Assembly (NCBI GenBank): GCA_021738105.1
Contig: JAIPCS010000190.1
Span: 1 to 6,237 of the forward strand
Length of the DNA stretch: 6,237 nt
Reading direction: 5' to 3'
Source: Sulfuritalea sp.
Lineage (GTDB): Bacteria; Pseudomonadota; Gammaproteobacteria; Burkholderiales; Rhodocyclaceae
In this document: positions 1 to 6,237 of the stretch, piece after piece
Position numbering within the stretch: position 1 is the stretch's first letter
Layout of the letters: each line of letters begins with the position of its first letter
Position numbers and translations under genes: made by a program
The notes under the pieces: generated by a model
Databases searched by the model: none
Seen by the model: the letters and a program-made list of their open reading frames with translations, nothing else
What the model was told of the DNA's origin: nothing

Positions 1-37
1 CGTTGTTGGGTATTTTTTGGTTATAGTCGATGCTCAT
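1..37 (-). CDS. boxB: BoxB, benzoyl-CoA 2,3-epoxidase oxygenase component, N-terminus only
   Basis: Only the first 12 codons lie in the window, reading MSIDYNQKIPNN, and the gene runs off the left edge. From memory, BoxB proteins begin with a similar M-S-x-x-Y-x-x-x-IPNN-V-N-L stretch, and the position directly downstream of boxC fits. BoxB is the di-iron subunit that, with the reductase BoxA, converts benzoyl-CoA to 2,3-epoxybenzoyl-CoA using O2 and NADPH in the cytoplasm. The start ATG (37-35 on the minus strand) has an AGGAG ribosome-binding site at 48-44, 6 nt upstream. A second ATG between the two (42-40) hits a stop after one further codon, so it is not the start. The gap to boxC is 45 nt, so co-transcription is expected. 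The call rests on a short peptide plus context, so confidence is moderate to high. Confidence 0.78.
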   Translation of the reverse strand, partial: MSIDYNQKIPNN

Positions 38-73
38 TGCATTCTCCTGTGGGGTTGGGGGTGCATTTTTTGC

Positions 74-96
74 GGGAACGTGTCAAACGCGTTCCC
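74..96 (-). other. Stem-loop spanning the boxC stop codon
   Basis: GGGAACG (74-80) and CGTTCCC (90-96) form a perfect 7-bp inverted repeat. A wobble pair (81/89) and a G-C pair (82/88) can extend it to 9 bp. The boxC stop codon lies in the loop region. On the minus strand the stem is followed by GCAAAAAATGC rather than a U-run, so it does not look like an intrinsic terminator. It could be an mRNA-processing or stability element between boxC and boxB. Function is inferred from position only. Confidence 0.4.
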
Positions 97-1753
97 AGTT
101 GAACTTCGCTTTGTTGCCACTGCCGAATATTTTCAGTGCGCCGGTTTCTCCGACGGCATTGGGTCGAATGAAAATCCAGTTCTGCCATGCCGAAAGGCGA
201 CCGAATACACGAGTCTCCATGGTTTCACCCGGGCCGAAACGCAGATTGGCCTCCATTGCAGTCAGTGCGTCCGGTGACAGGCTGGCGCGTTCTTCGAGGA
301 CGATGCGGATCTCGTCTTCCCAGTCGAGATCATCGGGTGTGGCAGTCACCAGTCCCAGTTCAGCGGATTCGGCCGCGCCGAGCGCCTTGCCGATGGCCGC
401 TTTAACTGCTGCGATTGGTTCGTCTTCATCGTAGAAACGCGCGGCGATTCGGAAACGGCCATTGACCATGGGGTAGCTGCCGAAATTCATCTCGGACAGC
501 GTGACTTTTGGTTCCAGCTCCGGGGTGTCGGGCAGGGAAAGCATGTAGCTGCGGTCTGCGGCCAGCAATAGCTCAGCCAAAGTACCTGCGAAACAGGTGC
601 CTTGCTCGACCAGAGCAATCAGAGTGCGCGATGTGACGTCGAGACGGGCCAATGTTCTGCGCAGCATGCCGATAGTTTCACGGACGAACCAGTGTTGCCG
701 GTGCTTGATCATCGCGGCATCGGCATCCAGTACGAGTTGAGTGTCACCCGTGGTCTTGAGAATCCAGGTACCGATCTCCAGATCGTTGGTGCGCAGCATC
801 AGAATGGCATCATCAAGTTCCCTCGACATTTTCAGCGGCCACCAGGAGTCACCTTCGGCAACGATGGTTTCGACGCTGTTTGCTGCTTCTGTTTTTGGTG
901 CCGTTACCGTAATGGTCGCTTGTCTCGATTTGCGATCAATGACGACATCCACGGTTTCATAGTGATAGCCTGCACCGTCAATGGTCCTTTTGACGGGAGT
1001 CAGGGCGATACCTTTGGCGTCCTTGGGGCGATCACTCAGCTCCGCGAGTTGTTCCGCCCGCTGTTGCACCTTCTCGGCAAATTGCTGGGGTTTGGCATAA
1101 TCGTCGATCAGGCGCCATTCCTTGGCGCGCTGCGCACGGATACCCTCGGTGAGGGTGCAGAAAATGTCTGCGTGATCGCGTCGGACCCGGCGCTTGTCGG
1201 TAACGCGGGTGAGGCCACCGGTGCCGGGAAGTACTCCGAGCAGCGGGACTTCTGGAAGGCTGACGGCCGATGAACGATCGTCGACCAAAATGATTTCGTC
1301 ACAGGCGAGCGCCATTTCATAGCCACCACCTGCCGTCGTGCCGTTGCACGCCGCAATGAATTTCAATCCGGAATGGCGGCTGGAATCTTCAATGCCGTTG
1401 CGCGTCTCGTTGGTGAATTTGCAGAAATTCACTTTCCAGGCATGAGTAGAGAGACCCAACATGAAAATATTGGCGCCGGAGCAGAAGATTCGATCTTTGC
1501 CGCTGGTGATCACAACACTTCTTACCTCGGGATGCTCGAAGCGGATTCTTTGCAGAGCGTCATGAAACTCGATATCGACGCCGAGATCATAGGAGTTGAG
1601 CTTCAGTTTGTAGCCAGGCTTGATGCCGCCGTCTTCGTTGATGTCGAGATGAAGCGTGGCAACCGCGCCAGAAAAACTCAGGCGCCAGTGTTTGTACTGG
1701 TCAGGATGGGTGTCATAAGTGATGGTCTGTGGGGGGGCTTCTGGATAAGTCAT
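83..1753 (-). CDS. boxC: BoxC, benzoyl-CoA-dihydrodiol lyase (2,3-epoxybenzoyl-CoA ring cleavage)
   Basis: This 556-aa cytoplasmic enzyme of the aerobic box pathway hydrolytically opens 2,3-epoxybenzoyl-CoA to 3,4-didehydroadipyl-CoA semialdehyde and formate. The N-terminal half is a crotonase (enoyl-CoA hydratase) domain. Visible landmarks are SGANIFMLG (residues 92-100, oxyanion-hole region), CNGTTAGGGYEMALACDE (136-153) and SLPEVPLLGVLPGTGG (165-180). E146 and E168 fall at the two acidic positions used by crotonase-type enzymes. Residues about 270-530 form the second, degenerate crotonase-like half typical of BoxC, and the protein ends GSGNKAKFNWERV. The length matches the family, at about 550 residues. 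The start at 1753 has GGAG at 1763-1760, 6 nt upstream. The gene lies 27 nt after the regulator gene and 45 nt before boxB, as one operon. The domain order and motifs appear intact. Confidence 0.95.
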   Translation of the reverse strand: MTYPEAPPQTITYDTHPDQYKHWRLSFSGAVATLHLDINEDGGIKPGYKLKLNSYDLGVDIEFHDALQRIRFEHPEVRSVVITSGKDRIFCSGANIFMLGLSTHAWKVNFCKFTNETRNGIEDSSRHSGLKFIAACNGTTAGGGYEMALACDEIILVDDRSSAVSLPEVPLLGVLPGTGGLTRVTDKRRVRRDHADIFCTLTEGIRAQRAKEWRLIDDYAKPQQFAEKVQQRAEQLAELSDRPKDAKGIALTPVKRTIDGAGYHYETVDVVIDRKSRQATITVTAPKTEAANSVETIVAEGDSWWPLKMSRELDDAILMLRTNDLEIGTWILKTTGDTQLVLDADAAMIKHRQHWFVRETIGMLRRTLARLDVTSRTLIALVEQGTCFAGTLAELLLAADRSYMLSLPDTPELEPKVTLSEMNFGSYPMVNGRFRIAARFYDEDEPIAAVKAAIGKALGAAESAELGLVTATPDDLDWEDEIRIVLEERASLSPDALTAMEANLRFGPGETMETRVFGRLSAWQNWIFIRPNAVGETGALKIFGSGNKAKFNWERV

Positions 1754-1780
1754 TCGCTTCTCCGTTATGTAAATTTATGA

Positions 1781-2677
1781 TTAGTGTGTGACGATTTGAC
1801 GCAACTGCTTGAGACAGTCCTCCGGCTTTCGGCCAGTGGTATCGAGGATGAAATCTGCTTTCGAATACAGCGGTTCACGGGCGACCAGAATTCGGCGCAT
1901 ATCTTCCATTGCTTCGGCGTTGCCTTCCATCGGTCTGAAGTCTCCCTGGGCGACAACTCTGGCCATGTGTTCTTCGGGAGTCGCTTTCACCCAAATGGTG
2001 AAACAGTCCATCAGCAAGAGATTGAAGGTTTCCGTTTCGGATACGATGCCGCCGCCGACGGTGATGACCGCAGAGTCATTTGTCGCGATGAAAGCCTCCA
2101 GACAGCGACGCTCAAGGCGACGAAATCCCGGTTGGCCATAGAGCATGAATACTTCGTTCAGACTCATTCCGGCTTCGGCTTCAATCGCATTGTTCAGTTC
2201 GACAAATGGTGTGGAAAGCTCTTTTGCCAGAACGCGACCCAGCGTCGATTTGCCTGCACCACGCAGACCGACCAGTGCGATGCGTTTTCTGCGTGCCGCG
2301 TCTTCTTTGCCAAAGTCCCGCATCAGGCGCAACAGGGCTTCTTCGAGTTTTGCCGGAGGCAGTTGCTCGAGGAAATGAGATATCAGGCGGTACTCAGCAG
2401 AACTGTGCTGGGGCTCAAGCAGTTCAATCAGAGAAATCCCTAACGCATGTGAGACATGGCGCAACACCATAATCGATGGATTTGTTTCTCCGCTTTCTAC
2501 CTGCGCAAGGTATCGCTCCGAAACATCCGAGTTCAAGGCCAGCGCCTTGCGAGACATTCCGCGCCGCGCCCGCGCCTCGCGGACCCGTATGCCAAGCGCC
2601 TGGATGAACTCGGCATCGGCCGTTTCATCGATGAGGCGAGGGTGCGCATCAGTTTCTGGCTTATCGATTGATTCCAT
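1781..2677 (-). CDS. bzdR/boxR: BzdR/BoxR-type transcriptional regulator (HTH_XRE plus shikimate-kinase-like domain)
   Basis: A 298-aa fusion regulator. Residues 31-87 form an XRE/Cro-type helix-turn-helix, with SERYLAQVESGETNPS around the recognition helix. A linker (about 88-130) leads to a shikimate-kinase-like domain with Walker A GLRGAGKST (137-145), GFRRLE (184-189), GGG (208-210), a lid with R248-P, and AREPLY (266-271). In Azoarcus, BzdR (also about 298 aa) represses the anaerobic bzd promoter and its paralogue BoxR represses the box genes. Benzoyl-CoA, bound by the kinase-like domain, relieves repression. Here the gene leads the box operon and is divergent from bzdN, so sequence alone does not decide between the two names. 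In the alignment I make to AroK, the shikimate-binding Asp34 is Asn162, which argues against shikimate kinase activity. The start at 2677 has GGTGA at 2688-2684, 6 nt upstream. A dyad over its own -10 suggests autoregulation. Confidence 0.93.
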   Translation of the reverse strand: MESIDKPETDAHPRLIDETADAEFIQALGIRVREARARRGMSRKALALNSDVSERYLAQVESGETNPSIMVLRHVSHALGISLIELLEPQHSSAEYRLISHFLEQLPPAKLEEALLRLMRDFGKEDAARRKRIALVGLRGAGKSTLGRVLAKELSTPFVELNNAIEAEAGMSLNEVFMLYGQPGFRRLERRCLEAFIATNDSAVITVGGGIVSETETFNLLLMDCFTIWVKATPEEHMARVVAQGDFRPMEGNAEAMEDMRRILVAREPLYSKADFILDTTGRKPEDCLKQLRQIVTH

Positions 2678-2700
2678 GTTTAGTCACCAATGGTTTTCCG

Positions 2701-2748
2701 AGTGCACAGTGCCGCGTAAACAGACTGCACTATAGTACATAGTGCCGC
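2701..2748. promoter_or_regulatory. Operator cluster: perfect dyad plus AGTGC half-sites
   Basis: GCACTAT (2727-2733) and ATAGTGC (2739-2745) form a perfect 7-bp inverted repeat around a 5-nt spacer. AGTGC half-sites recur at 2701-2705, 2708-2712 and 2741-2745, with the inverted GCACT at 2727-2731. The octamer AGTGCCGC occurs twice, at 2708-2715 and 2741-2748, 33 bp apart and so close to three helical turns. TGCA occurs at 2703-2706 and 2726-2729. BzdR/BoxR operators in Azoarcus are known to contain repeated TGCA within palindromes, so this is a strong candidate site for the adjacent regulator. It overlaps the predicted -10 and early transcribed region of the regulator gene. Binding is inferred. 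Confidence 0.68.
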
Positions 2749-2758
2749 TTTTTGTGAA
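2729..2758 (-). promoter_or_regulatory. Predicted sigma70 promoter of the regulator-boxC-boxB operon
   Basis: On the minus strand, a -35 TTCACA (2758-2753, one mismatch to TTGACA) is followed by 18 nt and a -10 TATAGT (2734-2729, one mismatch to TATAAT). Transcription would start near 2722, giving a leader of about 45 nt. The -10 lies inside the dyad at 2727-2745, so a protein bound there would block RNA polymerase. This is a prediction from consensus matching. Confidence 0.55.
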
Positions 2759-2767
2759 CAATATTTT

Positions 2768-2782
2768 TTAGACCTAATCTAA
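2768..2782. repeat. Short inverted repeat in AT-rich upstream region
   Basis: TTAGA (2768-2772) and TCTAA (2778-2782) are perfect 5-bp inverted arms around CCTAA. The element lies in the AT-rich stretch (about 2749-2855) upstream of the bzdN promoter, centred near -129 from the predicted start. It does not contain the TGCA or AGTGC motif of the other sites. It may bind another factor or be chance in AT-rich DNA. Nothing else definite was seen between 2783 and 2850. Confidence 0.25.
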
Positions 2783-2852
2783 TAGTGGTTATAAAAACAG
2801 TGTAACTATATGAATAAGAACAAAAACATAGTAATTCTTGAATCGATGAAAA

Positions 2853-2860
2853 ATACTGCA
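2853..2860. promoter_or_regulatory. Upstream half of the TGCA inverted pair at the bzdN promoter
   Basis: ATACTGCA here is the exact reverse complement of TGCAGTAT at 2910-2917. It ends 8 nt before the predicted bzdN -35, at about -51 to -44. It carries TGCA, the core reported for BzdR operators, so it is a candidate regulator half-site paired with the downstream copy. Confidence 0.45.
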
Positions 2861-2868
2861 TGAGACTA

Positions 2869-2897
2869 TTGACTACAAGGTCTTTTTATCCCATAAT
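2869..2897 (+). promoter_or_regulatory. Predicted sigma70 promoter of the bzdN operon (PN-like)
   Basis: TTGACT (2869-2874) and CATAAT (2892-2897) are separated by 17 nt, and each box has one mismatch to the sigma70 consensus. Transcription would start near 2904, leaving a leader of about 100 nt before bzdN. TGCA elements lie just upstream of the -35 and just downstream of the start, so a repressor could bracket the promoter. This is the best promoter in the intergenic region for the rightward operon. Confidence 0.65.
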
Positions 2898-2909
2898 TCG
2901 CTCAGCTTG

Positions 2910-2917
2910 TGCAGTAT
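2910..2917. promoter_or_regulatory. Downstream half of the TGCA inverted pair at the bzdN promoter
   Basis: TGCAGTAT is the exact reverse complement of ATACTGCA at 2853-2860. It sits at about +7 to +14 from the predicted bzdN start. The centre-to-centre distance to the upstream half is 57 bp. This position fits an operator that blocks promoter clearance or supports a bound complex across the promoter. Role inferred. Confidence 0.45.
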
Positions 2918-2928
2918 GGTTCATCGAT

Positions 2929-2942
2929 GGAACAATAGTTCC
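2929..2942 (+). other. Small hairpin in the bzdN leader
   Basis: GGAAC (2929-2933) and GTTCC (2938-2942) form a perfect 5-bp stem with a 4-nt AATA loop, in the untranslated leader about 25-40 nt after the predicted start. There is no U-run, so it is not a terminator. It may stabilise the 5' end of the mRNA or have no function. Confidence 0.3.
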
Positions 2943-2994
2943 TGTTCAAATGAATACAGCGTCCCGACCCTGAAATGGTGGTGGATAGCTAACA

Positions 2995-3000
2995 AGGAGG
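2995..3000 (+). promoter_or_regulatory. Ribosome-binding site of bzdN
   Basis: A perfect AGGAGG lies 5 nt before the ATG at 3006. It decides the start. The reading frame is open further upstream (TTG at 2907, ATG at 2916), but those codons have no Shine-Dalgarno sequence and would add a Trp- and Ser-rich stretch outside the conserved protein. Confidence 0.85.
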
Positions 3001-3005
3001 CACCA

Positions 3006-4145
3006 ATGGCTGATGGATTGTTCGACCAGTTCCAAAACTGGTATGAGAAGCGCCATGACTACGCGCGTGATTGGAAAGCACGCACCGGTGGTCAGGTTGT
3101 TGCAACGATGTGTACCTATACGGCAGAAGAACTACTGATTGCCGCTGGAATGCTGCCGGTACGTGTACTTGGCGCGCATGAACCGCAAAACGTGACCGAG
3201 CCGCACATCTTTGGCATGTTCTGTCCGTTCTGTCGCGATTCTCTGGCGCAGGGCCTGCTCGGTCGCTACGATTACTGTCAGGGCGTGACCCTGACACAGT
3301 CCTGCATTCAATATCGGCAAACCTTCAGTTCCTGGCGCGGCAATGTGCCGACCGTGGAATGGGATTATTTTGTGCCGATGCCGAATGAAGTGCAGTCTCC
3401 ACATGCGCGCAAGGCGCATTATGCGGAGATTCAGGCGTTCCGCGTATTCCTGCAGGCTTTGACCGGCAAGGAGCTGACGGACGAGATGCTGCGCGAGGCC
3501 CTGGCCGTGGTCGACGAAAATCGTCGCCTGCTGCGTGAATTGTTCGAATATCGCAAGGCAGAGAATCCCCAGATAACCGGCTGTGAAGCCCTGTACGCTT
3601 CGATTACCGCGCAGTTCGTCGACAAGCGTGAGCACAACGAGATGCTCAAGAAAGTGCTTGCCGCACTGCCGACGCGTCAGCTGAATCGTCCCGAAGGCGT
3701 TCGTTTCATGACCATCGGTTCCGAGAATGACGATCTGGCATTCATGGCCATGGTCGAGTCCGTCGGATCGACGATCGTGATCGACGACCAGTGTTCCGGT
3801 ACCCGCTACTTCTGGAACCAGTCGAAGCCCGAAGATGACGTGATCAAGGCGATCGCCGAGCGCTACTGCGACCGCCCGGCCTGTCCGACCAAGGATTATC
3901 CGGTTCACACCCGCTACGATCATGTGCTGGGCCTGGCCAAGGAATACAATGCCCGCGCCGCCATCTTCCTGCAGCAAAAATTCTGCGATCCGCACGAAGG
4001 CGACTATCCCGATCTGAAAAAGCATCTTGAAGACAATGGCATTCCAACGCTGTTCCTGGATTTCGACATTACCAACCCCATCGGCCCCTTCCGCATCCGT
4101 ATCGAGGCTTTCCTCGAGACGATGAGCGACGAAGAGCTGTTCTAA
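3006..4145 (+). CDS. bzdN: BzdN, benzoyl-CoA reductase (Azoarcus/bzd type) subunit, HgdB-like
   Basis: A 379-aa subunit of the catalytic half of class I benzoyl-CoA reductase, which reduces benzoyl-CoA to cyclohexa-1,5-diene-1-carbonyl-CoA at the cost of ATP. It belongs to the 2-hydroxyglutaryl-CoA dehydratase D-component (HgdB) family and corresponds to BcrC of Thauera. The family signature is visible as [21 protein letters not shown] (31-51). It is followed by [12 protein letters not shown] (72-83) and QSCIQYRQ (98-105). C36, C73/C76 and C100 are the candidate ligands for a [4Fe-4S] cluster. The length is typical for BzdN. The start at 3006 is set by AGGAGG 5 nt upstream. It is the first gene of the operon, with bzdO 14 nt downstream. 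Assignment to bzd rather than bcr type rests on recall of the family and on the BzdR-type regulator next door. Confidence 0.9.
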
Positions 4146-4159
4146 CCAGACGGGAGAGC

Positions 4160-5473
4160 ATGATGAACGCACCAAACAAGTATCCGACTGAGTCCCTCAA
4201 GCTGTGGGGCAAGGCCAAGCAGTTGCGCGAGCAGTATTACAAGAACTATGCCGATGCCAAAGACAAGGGCGGTCTGCGCTGGTCCGGGTCCGCCTGGGCG
4301 CTGGATGCACTGCCGGCCGGTCTTGGTGATGACGTCTATTCACTGACTGGAGAGCCCTACGCGGCTGCTGTTGCGCACGATCCGAAGTTCGCCAAGGAGT
4401 GTATGGACGCCGCCGAATCTGTCGGTTTCGCCCGTGACCTTTGCTCCTACATGCGGATTTACTGGGGTGGCATGCACCTCGACAAATACCTGTACGGGGG
4501 TAAGTTTCCCAAGGCCGACTTCATTTTTCAGACACAGATCTGCTGCTCGCACTCGAAGTGGTACCAGCACGTTGCCAAGGAAGAGCAGATTCCCCAGTTT
4601 TACGTGGATGTCGGCGTCGGTCCCTACAAGGACATGAACGCAGCGCGCCTCGATTACGTCACCAACCAGTTGCACGACGGTATCGAGTTCCTGGAGAAAT
4701 CCACGGGCCGCACCTTCGACGACGAAAAGTTCCTCAAGGCAGTCAAGAACGAAATGCGCTCGACCAGTCGCTGGGCCGACATTTGCGCCCTGAACAAGGT
4801 CAAGCCCGCGCCGCTCGACGAGAAGACCATGTACTCGCTGTATGTGCTGGCGACGCTGTCGAAGTCATCGCAGTGGTGTGCCGACTTCTACGACGAGCTC
4901 TATGAAGAAGTGAAGGATCGTGTTGCTCGCGGCATTGCTGCCGTGGGAAATGAAAAGTGCCGCATGATGTCCGACACGCAGCCTCCCTGGTCCTTCCTCA
5001 AGATTTTCCGCTATCTCGAAACCTACGGTGCGGTGTCGATCGGTTCGCTCTATACCTTTGCGCTTGAAGGTATCTGGGAAGACAAACCGGATGGCAGCTG
5101 GGGTGGTCGTTCCTTGCCGTGGGAAAAGGGCATCGAGATGAATACCCGCGACCAGATATTGCGCCTCTATGCCGACTGGAACTTGTCGAAGCCTCAGTGG
5201 CAGCATTTCTTCGATCCGCGACTGAAGACGGAAATGATGCTGCGTATCGTCAAGGAATGGCAGGTCGACGGCGTCATGTTGCACCTCAATCGCGGCTGTG
5301 AAGGGCTCAGTCTCGGCATCATGGAAAACCGTGGCGGTATCGCAAAAGCCGGCGTGCCGATCATGACCTTCGAAGGCAACATGGGTGATGAGCGCGAGTT
5401 TGACGAGACGCGAACCCAGGCCCGGGTCGATGCTTTCATGGAACAGCTCGGCTTGCGCCGTCAAGCTGCCTGA
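4160..5473 (+). CDS. bzdO: BzdO, benzoyl-CoA reductase (bzd type) subunit, HgdB-like
   Basis: A 437-aa (or 436-aa) second catalytic-half subunit of benzoyl-CoA reductase, corresponding to BcrB of Thauera. It is thought to form the substrate-binding heterodimer with BzdN and to carry a further [4Fe-4S] cluster. Candidate cluster cysteines, numbered from the first Met, are C95 ([13 protein letters not shown]), C128/C129 ([11 protein letters not shown]) and C380 (NRGCEGLS). The C-terminus has the family pattern [17 protein letters not shown] before a short helix. Two adjacent ATG codons exist, at 4160 and 4163. GGGAG at 4152-4156 is only 3 nt from the first but 6 nt from the second, so translation may well begin at 4163. 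The protein is complete, lies 14 nt after bzdN and is followed 32 nt later by the ATPase subunit gene. Confidence 0.92.
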
Positions 5474-5491
5474 TTTGTTAAAGAAACGTAC

Positions 5492-5497
5492 AGGAGG
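5492..5497 (+). promoter_or_regulatory. Ribosome-binding site of the ATPase subunit gene
   Basis: AGGAGG lies 8 nt before the ATG at 5506 in the 32-nt gap after bzdO. It fixes the start of the partial gene, whose first residues already enter the ATPase phosphate-binding motif. Confidence 0.8.
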
Positions 5498-5505
5498 AAT
5501 CTAGG

Positions 5506-6237
5506 ATGATTACCGCTGGAATAGATATGGGCTCGCGTAGCATCAAAGTGGTTCTGCTCGAAGAACTCGATGTAAATGGCGCACCGCAGCTCAAGTATGG
5601 CGTTAAAAAAGCCCACATCATGATGCCGGGCGATCTGGATCAGGACGTCGCTGCCGAAAAGGCCTACGACGAGGCCCTGGCTGTCGCTGGACTGAAGCGC
5701 GAGGATGTGTCGGTCGTATTTGCTACGGGCGCAGGCCGCAACCAAGTTGCTTTCGCTAAGGAGGGCGTGACCGAAATGACCTCCGGTGCCAAAGGCGCGG
5801 TGTTCATGTTTCCGGCCGCACGTACGGTCGTCGATGTCGGTGCCGGGGAAGGTCGCGGCATGAAGACCGACGCCGAGGGCAAGGCGATTGACTTTGCCGG
5901 CAACGAGAAATGCGCTGCAGGTGCAGGCTCCTTCGCCGAAGCCATGTCGCGGGCGTTGCAAATGACACTCAAGGAGTTTGGCGAGGCCAGCCTGCAGTCC
6001 GACAAAACCATCCCGATGAATGCGCAATGCACGGTATTTGCCGAGTCCGAAGTGGTGTCGCTGATTCACGCGTCCACACCCAAGAACGACATCGCCAAGG
6101 CCGTGCTGGATGCGGTTGCCAGCCGTGTCTGCGCCATGGTTCGCCGCGTCGGAATCGAGGGCGAGGTGGTGCTGATTGGTGGCATGGTGCATAACGCCGG
6201 CTTCGTCAGTTCGCTGAAGACCGCGATGGGCGTCGAT
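5506..6237 (+). CDS. bzdP: Benzoyl-CoA reductase ATPase subunit, probably BzdP (BadF/BadG/BcrA/BcrD family), 3' end missing
   Basis: The frame is open for 244 codons to the right edge, so the gene is partial. It encodes an ASKHA-fold ATPase of the BcrA/BcrD and HgdC activator family. Two such subunits form the ATP-driven electron-transfer module that passes low-potential electrons from ferredoxin to the catalytic half. Visible motifs are GIDMGSRSIKVVL (5-17, phosphate 1), ATGAGRNQ (73-80), VVDVGAGEGRG (108-118, phosphate 2), NEKCAAGAGSF (133-143), NAQCTVFAESEV (172-183) and IGGMVHNAGF (224-233, adenosine site). C136 and C175 are the conserved cysteines that hold the [4Fe-4S] cluster bridging the two ATPase subunits. 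DVGAGEGR instead of the more usual DIGGQD resembles the BcrD side of the family. The third position in the operon fits bzdP, but bzdQ cannot be fully excluded because the naming depends on the missing C-terminus and next gene. Confidence 0.82.
   Translation, partial: MITAGIDMGSRSIKVVLLEELDVNGAPQLKYGVKKAHIMMPGDLDQDVAAEKAYDEALAVAGLKREDVSVVFATGAGRNQVAFAKEGVTEMTSGAKGAVFMFPAARTVVDVGAGEGRGMKTDAEGKAIDFAGNEKCAAGAGSFAEAMSRALQMTLKEFGEASLQSDKTIPMNAQCTVFAESEVVSLIHASTPKNDIAKAVLDAVASRVCAMVRRVGIEGEVVLIGGMVHNAGFVSSLKTAMGVD

Follow-up and report, generated by a model that had tools for sequence, protein, structure and literature searches.

A repressor of the BoxR type, probably released by benzoyl-CoA, appears to control two opposed operons of benzoyl-CoA breakdown as one regulatory module in a 6,237-bp stretch of Sulfuritalea sp. 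DNA (contig JAIPCS010000190.1; the whole stretch is called the window below). The regulator gene, boxC and the start of boxB, of the aerobic box route, run leftward, and bzdN, bzdO and bzdP, of the oxygen-sensitive reductase route, run rightward, both sets flanking a gap of 328 bp. A sequence-only reading of this DNA had described that layout; profile scores above the cut-offs bear it out, and the gap spans exactly 2678-3005. From comparison of sequences we put the probability of the shared module at about two in three. Whole-genome checks were made in the Sulfuritalea-like genus to which the nearest relative, G001, belongs (31 genomes), and statements on published systems, here and below, draw on excerpts of the cited papers.

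Operators and promoters between the two arms

Twenty-eight control regions were compared, that of the window and those of 27 relatives (G432 and G434 included). The elements of the window's gap are as follows.

2678..3005, no strand: shared divergent control region, 328 bp, the gap between regulator and bzdN
2725..2740, no strand: left operator CTGCACTATAGTACAT, differing at 2 positions from the palindrome published for BoxR/BzdR (PMC6449761), with a core conserved in the 28 regions
2729..2758, minus strand: leftward promoter candidate TTCACA-18-TATAGT, proposed from a match to 10/12 consensus positions, with its -10 inside the left operator
2846..2861, no strand: candidate upstream operator for the bzd arm, ATGAAAAATACTGCAT, the window's second-best site with the left-only model
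2869..2897, plus strand: bzdN promoter candidate TTGACT-17-CATAAT, its TTGAC invariant in 19/19 aligned regions
2909..2924, no strand: operator candidate R1, GTGCAGTATGGTTCAT, just beyond the predicted transcription start
2929..2942, no strand: operator candidate R2, GGAACAATAGTTCC, identical in 27/28 regions and missing in G434

The left operator, with the core ACTATAGT, overlaps the predicted leftward -10 box. On the other side R1 is present in 27 of the 28 regions (G432 lacks it), and the bzdN -10 element resembles CATAAT or CATACT in 18 of the 19 aligned regions, L002 deviating. A matrix built from the left operators only ranked the three bzd-side sites second to fourth in the 6,237-bp window (13.5, 12.9 and 11.6; the next match scored 6.8) and placed all three among the best 7 matches of 12-21 kb in the 13 relatives tested, of 27. 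Conversely, a matrix built from R1 and R2 only ranked the left site third in the window and second to fourth in 13/13 relatives tested. These reciprocal results indicate that both arms carry the same operator code. The distance from the left operator to R2 is 201-205 bp in all 27 regions with R2 (standard deviation 1.0), and that from R2 to the bzdN start has a standard deviation of 2.7 in 26 loci. The stretch of roughly 100 bp that separates the left operator from the bzd promoter shows a median pairwise identity of 46%, and the distance from the regulator ATG to the left operator varies from 43 to 124 bp, with about 75 extra bases in L013 and L202.

We infer the following course of events. 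A repressor of the BoxR kind would bind four operators, one at the -10 box of its own gene and the other three flanking the bzdN promoter. In the absence of benzoyl-CoA it would shut both arms, possibly as one looped complex, a possibility raised by the 201-205 bp spacing that the arms keep. Benzoyl-CoA, supplied by the ligase encoded at the distal end of the bzd arm, would release the repressor and let both arms fire. The bzd promoter, whose -35 and -10 boxes are close to consensus and which lacks an FNR/AcpR site, would no longer be restricted to anaerobic conditions and would be expressed with oxygen as well, because the aerobic box route would also need the ligase of the bzd arm. The scheme resembles the PN promoter of Azoarcus sp. 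CIB, where BzdR operators lie at -32 to +31 (OR1), -83 to -63 (OR2) and -146 to -126 (OR3), AcpR at -41.5 is reported as needed, benzoyl-CoA is the published inducer, OR2 and OR3 are needed for release by it, and the complex loops DNA (PMC6678401). By analogy, the left operator would sit approximately where OR3 does and is likely also to be the operator of the regulator-box promoter.

Beyond the gap, a strong match to a BoxR-type operator lies ahead of TRAP-transporter-like genes near box in relatives (L200:1387-1402, a perfect palindrome; L001:1020-1035), and these genes may form a third member of the regulon, perhaps for benzoate uptake.

Oxygen control and the position of the ligase

In the analysis that follows, TTGAT-N4-ATCAA stands for what we take to be the FNR-type site. 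The head-to-head loci, in which the window's type of regulator diverges from bzdN, do not carry the site near -41.5 of bzdN that marks the AcpR/FNR-dependent PN promoter: an FNR-like box before bzdN was found in 1 of 25 at two or fewer mismatches and in none of the 25 at one or fewer, where about 0.13 and 0.01 per region are expected in shuffled sequence. A further locus tallied separately from these, L015, has 3 mismatches to the box. At loci with a co-directional bzdR the corresponding counts are 30/31 and 17/31, and 29 of those 30 boxes lie at -124 to -149 from the bzdN start codon, in agreement with the published AcpR site. No FNR-like site with one or fewer mismatches occurs in the last 190 bp of any of the 28 control regions, a stretch that in G432 precedes a bzdW-like gene. 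The window's sole match with two or fewer mismatches, at 2982, adjoins the bzdN start codon and was judged not to be a promoter site. Two loci with a divergent regulator and no box genes in view (L020 and L026) have perfect FNR boxes, so divergence alone does not remove the box. Proteins of the FNR family exceeded the cut-off in 13 of the 14 head-to-head genomes that were tested, all but G011, and the protein has therefore generally not been lost.

The ligase supplies a possible reason. One strong benzoate-CoA ligase (more than 450 bits, a threshold set in this analysis) was found in 25 of 28 genus genomes; G437 has two, one of them partial, and G010 and G431 have none. It lies about 14-16.5 kb downstream of the head-to-head bzdN, on the same contig and strand, in G001, G007, G008, G009, G012, G013, G018, G426 and G427. 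Elsewhere in the genus the ligase and bzdN are on different contigs, the ligase of G019 being on the contig of another bzdN copy. Successive plus-strand reading frames with gaps under about 400 bp lead from bzdN to the ligase in G426, and that stretch holds no site above 8.2 with the operator matrix. The position of the sole strong ligase would make the aerobic route dependent on the bzd arm as well. Neither this placing of the ligase nor the missing FNR/AcpR box at bzdN had been foreseen in the sequence-only reading. Outside the genus, G024-G027 (Aromatoleum/Azoarcus) have two strong ligases each, and the FNR box is kept in Aromatoleum; G021 has one strong ligase, divergent from bzdR and with its own upstream region, and a perfect FNR box at bzdN. 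The pattern, a correlation over few lineages, fits a role of ligase position in the loss of the FNR box.

Two genus genomes have lost much of the reductase arm. In G432 (L220) and G434 (L222) the genes from bzdN to bzdV are missing at the locus, with short remnants of bzdN and bzdV in G434, and both keep the regulator, the box genes, a promoter-like sequence of the TTGAC..-10 kind and the bzdW-like gene. A strong ligase shares contig and strand with the locus in G432 and is on a different contig in G434. These losses, in two genomes that are possibly metagenome assemblies, fit a bzd arm that is kept for its ligase; they may mark a natural switch from facultative use of benzoate to aerobic use, or be a product of assembly.

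A wider scheme can be offered tentatively. With the ligase placed at the end of the anaerobic operon, oxygen control would have been taken off the reductase; the FNR/AcpR site would have left the bzd promoter, and an FNR-like site stands on the aerobic arm in 17 of the 28 loci, the window not among them. One looped BoxR spanning the gap of about 203 bp would be the main on/off switch, oxygenase and reductase would be made together, and oxygen would choose the route at the level of the enzymes.

The same 17 regions allow another reading, less likely than not, namely that the oxygen switch was relocated in many of the species: a protein of the FNR type would repress the regulator-box arm in anoxia, lower the level of repressor and thereby open the bzd arm. 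An FNR-like TTGAT-N4-ATCAA with one or fewer mismatches lies within 50 bp of the left operator in these regions (shuffles gave a mean of 0.15 and at most 3/28), its overlap with the leftward -35/-10 stretch puts it where binding would usually block, and both the FNR-family proteins in 13 of 14 genomes and the empty last 190 bp of the 28 regions agree with such a move. However, the window has no such site (best match, 4 mismatches), nor do 10 of the other 27 regions; the GTCAA half often doubles as the -35 hexamer of the leftward promoter, and the rows are related. The site could also activate if transcription starts elsewhere, and a one-mismatch site occurs in 1 of 7 ordinary box promoter regions looked at. 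Since the window lacks an FNR-like site at its left operator, FNR control of neither arm is predicted here.

Number and descent of the regulator

Exactly one regulator over the cut-off is present in 27 of the 28 regulator-bearing genus genomes, among them G426, whose single contig of 3,802,648 bases is about the whole listed size and which may be Sulfuritalea hydrogenivorans. Outside the genus, two regulators each occur in G020, G021, G022 and the Aromatoleum/Azoarcus genomes G024-G027, and one each in G023, which has no boxB match, and in G028 (Candidatus Desulfobacillus denitrificans, locus L078). Thus the earlier suggestion that a single BzdR/BoxR protein governs both operons from a compact hybrid locus gains from the one regulator in 27/28 genomes and from the operator code shared by both arms, and can be refined to a protein of the BoxR kind. 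A second boxR or bzdR elsewhere in the genome, which had been named as evidence to the contrary, turned up in 1 of 28 genus genomes: G015 has three regulators, together with a divergent box cluster that includes a boxR of its own.

The assignment to BoxR comes from a tree of 57 rows (of 57 distinct regulators, one of 253 residues was dropped and the window's was added). Twenty head-to-head regulators form one clade (100/99), which adjoins the Aromatoleum BoxR and the G015 boxR (96/89), so that the 20 rows stand together with five box-linked ones; 25 bzd-linked regulators are separate (100/95). This places the window's regulator in the BoxR lineage and outside the BzdR lineage, on a tree that has five long end branches, that requires two changes for the box-linked rows and in which four distal regulators received their box-linked label by hand. 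We infer that control of the bzd operon passed to a BoxR and that bzdR was lost.

A regulator that groups with BoxR might, like BoxR in other bacteria, control box only and leave bzd to another protein, the two arms being mere neighbours, and BoxR usually already has a divergent partner operon (PMC6449761). This is improbable, however, given that 27 of 28 genomes have no second protein of the BoxR/BzdR family, that the bzd-side sites are the window's best matches to the left-only model after the left site itself, and that the spacing between the arms is fixed. Very improbable is a function of R1 and R2 as an RNA element of the bzdN leader (a GGAAC-AATA-GTTCC hairpin) and not as operators: both lie beyond the predicted transcription start and R2 is a perfect 5-bp inverted repeat, but the AATA loop is as invariant as the stem in 27/27 rows, the R1/R2 motif is shared with the left operator, a site overlapping the leftward -10, and no Rfam family reaches its gathering score within 1700-3100, the one match there (E 0.9; 20.2 bits, gathering 35) being taken as chance.

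Several observations weigh against the shared module or parts of it. The bzd-side sites match the published palindrome (TGCA-N6-TGCA, consensus ATGCACTATAGTGCAT) only loosely, with 4 mismatches each at 2846 and 2909 and 6 in R2, where the left operator has 2. The relatives are not independent samples, and the constant spacing partly reflects shared descent. The counts of regulators and ligases come from relatives in the genus, and the window's host may have a second copy; G015 does have three regulators, though with the regulator-bzdN layout kept. G028 has one regulator in a genome where box and bzdN are about 330 kb apart, so a single regulator does not require a shared region; its box-linked regulator falls on the bzd side of the tree (95/90), and a near-FNR box stands before its bzdN. 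Lack of the FNR box does not follow the layout strictly: L022 is the sole co-directional locus without a clear one, and among loci without an adjacent regulator 31 of 41 have it and 10 do not, so its loss is not unique to head-to-head loci. A weaker second ligase (409-426 bits, over the model cut-off) occurs in 6 of 28 genomes (G011, G014, G018, G019, G427 and G437), five of the six matches on the contig of a second bzdN type, and an internal promoter nearer the ligase is possible. Finally, boxD, the semialdehyde dehydrogenase gene, was found at E 1e-60 in 0 of 28 genus genomes with the regulator, in a search of 30 genomes that matched nothing but G024, the source of the query, and thus lacked an independent positive control; if the box route works, another aldehyde dehydrogenase must take the boxD step.

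G028 (L218, L078) is in its own right another candidate for one regulator over two gene sets.

Known systems, distribution and gene identities

The locus shares with the BzdR/PN system of Azoarcus sp. CIB and Aromatoleum the regulator family, the bzdNOPQ operon and several palindromic operators at and upstream of the start (PMC6678401). In the Aromatoleum loci examined, however, bzdR is co-directional with bzdN, whereas the present regulator belongs to the BoxR kind, diverges from bzdN and lies ahead of boxC, and bzdN has no FNR-like site. With the BoxR divergon of Betaproteobacteria it has in common a boxR-boxCBA arm, a divergent partner operon and palindromes with the core ACTATAGT; the divergent boxR-boxCBA arrangement is standard, but the partner there is boxD/bclA, and here it is bzdNOPQ through to the ligase (PMC6449761). 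In the excerpted text of that study, bzd genes are reported for EbN1 only within its set, no box/bzd divergon is described, and the distant reductase operon of Thauera sp. MZ1T is without candidate BoxR sites.

One regulator and one ligase for both pathways are already in print for Thauera and Magnetospirillum, as stated from older papers in PMC6449761, and the present locus resembles these. G028 too has one BoxR/BzdR-family regulator together with box genes and bzdN, but differs in having its strong ligase in the box divergon. This leaves less that is new than had been suspected; the layout is common within one genus and was not seen outside it. Ligases near box and reductase genes have also been reported, and SUTH_01659 of Sulfuritalea hydrogenivorans falls in a group of three of which two have such a hybrid context; no divergent promoter, operators or regulator are described for SUTH_01659 in the excerpted text (PMC10803450). 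A box/bzd divergon with shared operators was not found described in searches of an open-access library, which leave out the subscription papers likeliest to show it. Expression of box genes in anoxic Azoarcus cultures is cited (PMC5852087), which would suit co-expression of both routes.

Facultative coordination of an oxygen-dependent and an oxygen-sensitive route is best known from Azoarcus, where two paralogous regulators act with an activator of the FNR type (PMC6449761, PMC6678401). The present locus seems to be a natural variant of such coordination that makes do with one regulator and one control region and shows no anaerobic activator site that could be recognised at the reductase operon. 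It offers predictions for habitats with fluctuating oxygen, and an explanation from gene order, the position of a shared ligase, for how a promoter may come to lose its oxygen sensor.

In a scan of a species-level genome collection, in which the best 80 of 347 BzdN relatives were retained, the window's type of regulator stands head to head with bzdN in 18 of the best 80 loci (L001-L015, L025, L028, L036); in three others (L020, L026 and L080, the last truncated by its contig) the regulator is divergent but lies at a distance, with no box genes in view. Among the 31 genus genomes, bzdN was found at E 1e-100 in 24, the regulator head to head with it in 25 (counting those truncated at a contig end), and box genes directly behind that regulator in 23 of the 25. 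The exceptions are G017, whose contig stops just beyond the regulator, and G015 (L219:5780-13360), which retains the head-to-head regulator and bzdN and has, where the usual box genes would be expected, the divergent box cluster (64-75% identity). That cluster includes a gene with the working label 'lactonase?', which we take to be cupin-like. Of the remaining six genomes, G432 and G434 have the regulator and box without bzdN at that threshold, the contig of G436 ends, and G428, G429 and G435 are without the regulator.

In the wider family bzdN occurs in 66 of 395 genomes. Of 34 loci taken from these (L235-L268), 22 show a co-directional regulator and 12 no regulator, and in none do box genes lie alongside bzdN; in these counts some places are represented twice and many loci have a flank of only 1.5 kb. 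The head-to-head layout of regulator, bzdN and box was not met at any locus examined outside the genus. No plasmid copies of bzdN were found at E 1e-60 in 72,556 records, and in a phylum-wide sample of 398 genomes, which did not extend to Magnetospirillum and other alphaproteobacteria, the sole match was G001 itself.

The genes of the window are listed below.

1..37, minus strand: start of boxB (benzoyl-CoA oxygenase component B); leaves the window; the reverse complement reads MSIDYNQK.., like the full boxB start in relative L001
83..1753, minus strand: boxC, 2,3-epoxybenzoyl-CoA dihydrolase (TIGR03222, 974.1 bits, cut-off 712.3)
1781..2677, minus strand: BoxR-kind repressor with helix-turn-helix (HTH) and shikimate-kinase-like domains (NF006015, 404.3 bits, cut-off 204)
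3006..4145, plus strand: bzdN, benzoyl-CoA reductase subunit (TIGR03190, 831.3 bits, cut-off 453.8)
4160..5473, plus strand: bzdO, benzoyl-CoA reductase subunit (TIGR03191, 925.5 bits, cut-off 448.6)
5506..6237, plus strand: bzdP (ATPase/activator subunit), named by position; leaves the window; TIGR00241 above cut-off

The regulator matches PF01381 and PF01202 above their cut-offs, its HTH_3 N-terminus and shikimate-kinase-like C-terminus agreeing with membership of the NF006015 family, and with only 27 bp between it and boxC it is probably the first gene of the box operon. The box pathway is represented by boxC and the start of boxB; boxA lies outside the visible window, and boxA-boxB-boxC occur together in L001 and others. 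On the other arm, the BzdN and BzdO equivalog models, TIGR03190 and TIGR03191, identify a bzd-type benzoyl-CoA reductase. The product of 5506-6237 is an acyl-CoA dehydratase activase, with TIGR02261, TIGR03192 and TIGR02259 all below their own cut-offs; it is named bzdP because the full gene at that place precedes bzdQ in L001 and other relatives. The window's bzdO is 84-90% identical to that of bzdR-linked clusters (L034, L042 and L047 among them) and only 75-77% to that of a second bzdN-bzdO type (L030, L033, L039, L040, L045, L049, L052, L053, L056, L079), which we assume to be linked to mbd (methylbenzoyl-CoA). These identities indicate that the window encodes a reductase of the benzoyl-CoA type and not of the methylbenzoyl-CoA (mbd) type.

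Second copies of bzdN without an adjacent regulator, perhaps for methylbenzoate, occur in several of the genus genomes, at L172, L178, L183, L192, L197 and L199. A bzdNOPQ copy in G019 (L035) lies behind genes resembling those of a TetR-type regulator and of enoyl-CoA hydratases; another contig of that genome (L206) ends inside a head-to-head bzdN, and together with L035 this may point to misassembly. In G018, boxB is split over two reading frames at C26:274079-275538 and C8:578-1940, through a frameshift, an assembly error or decay. The names bzdV and bzdW-like, and others used for the neighbouring genes (ssmS, adh(bzdX?), dctP, dctM, gcdH, sbp, ech(bzdW?)), are working labels from sequence appearance, and L001 also has a gene whose start, we presume, resembles that of a PaaK-type ligase.

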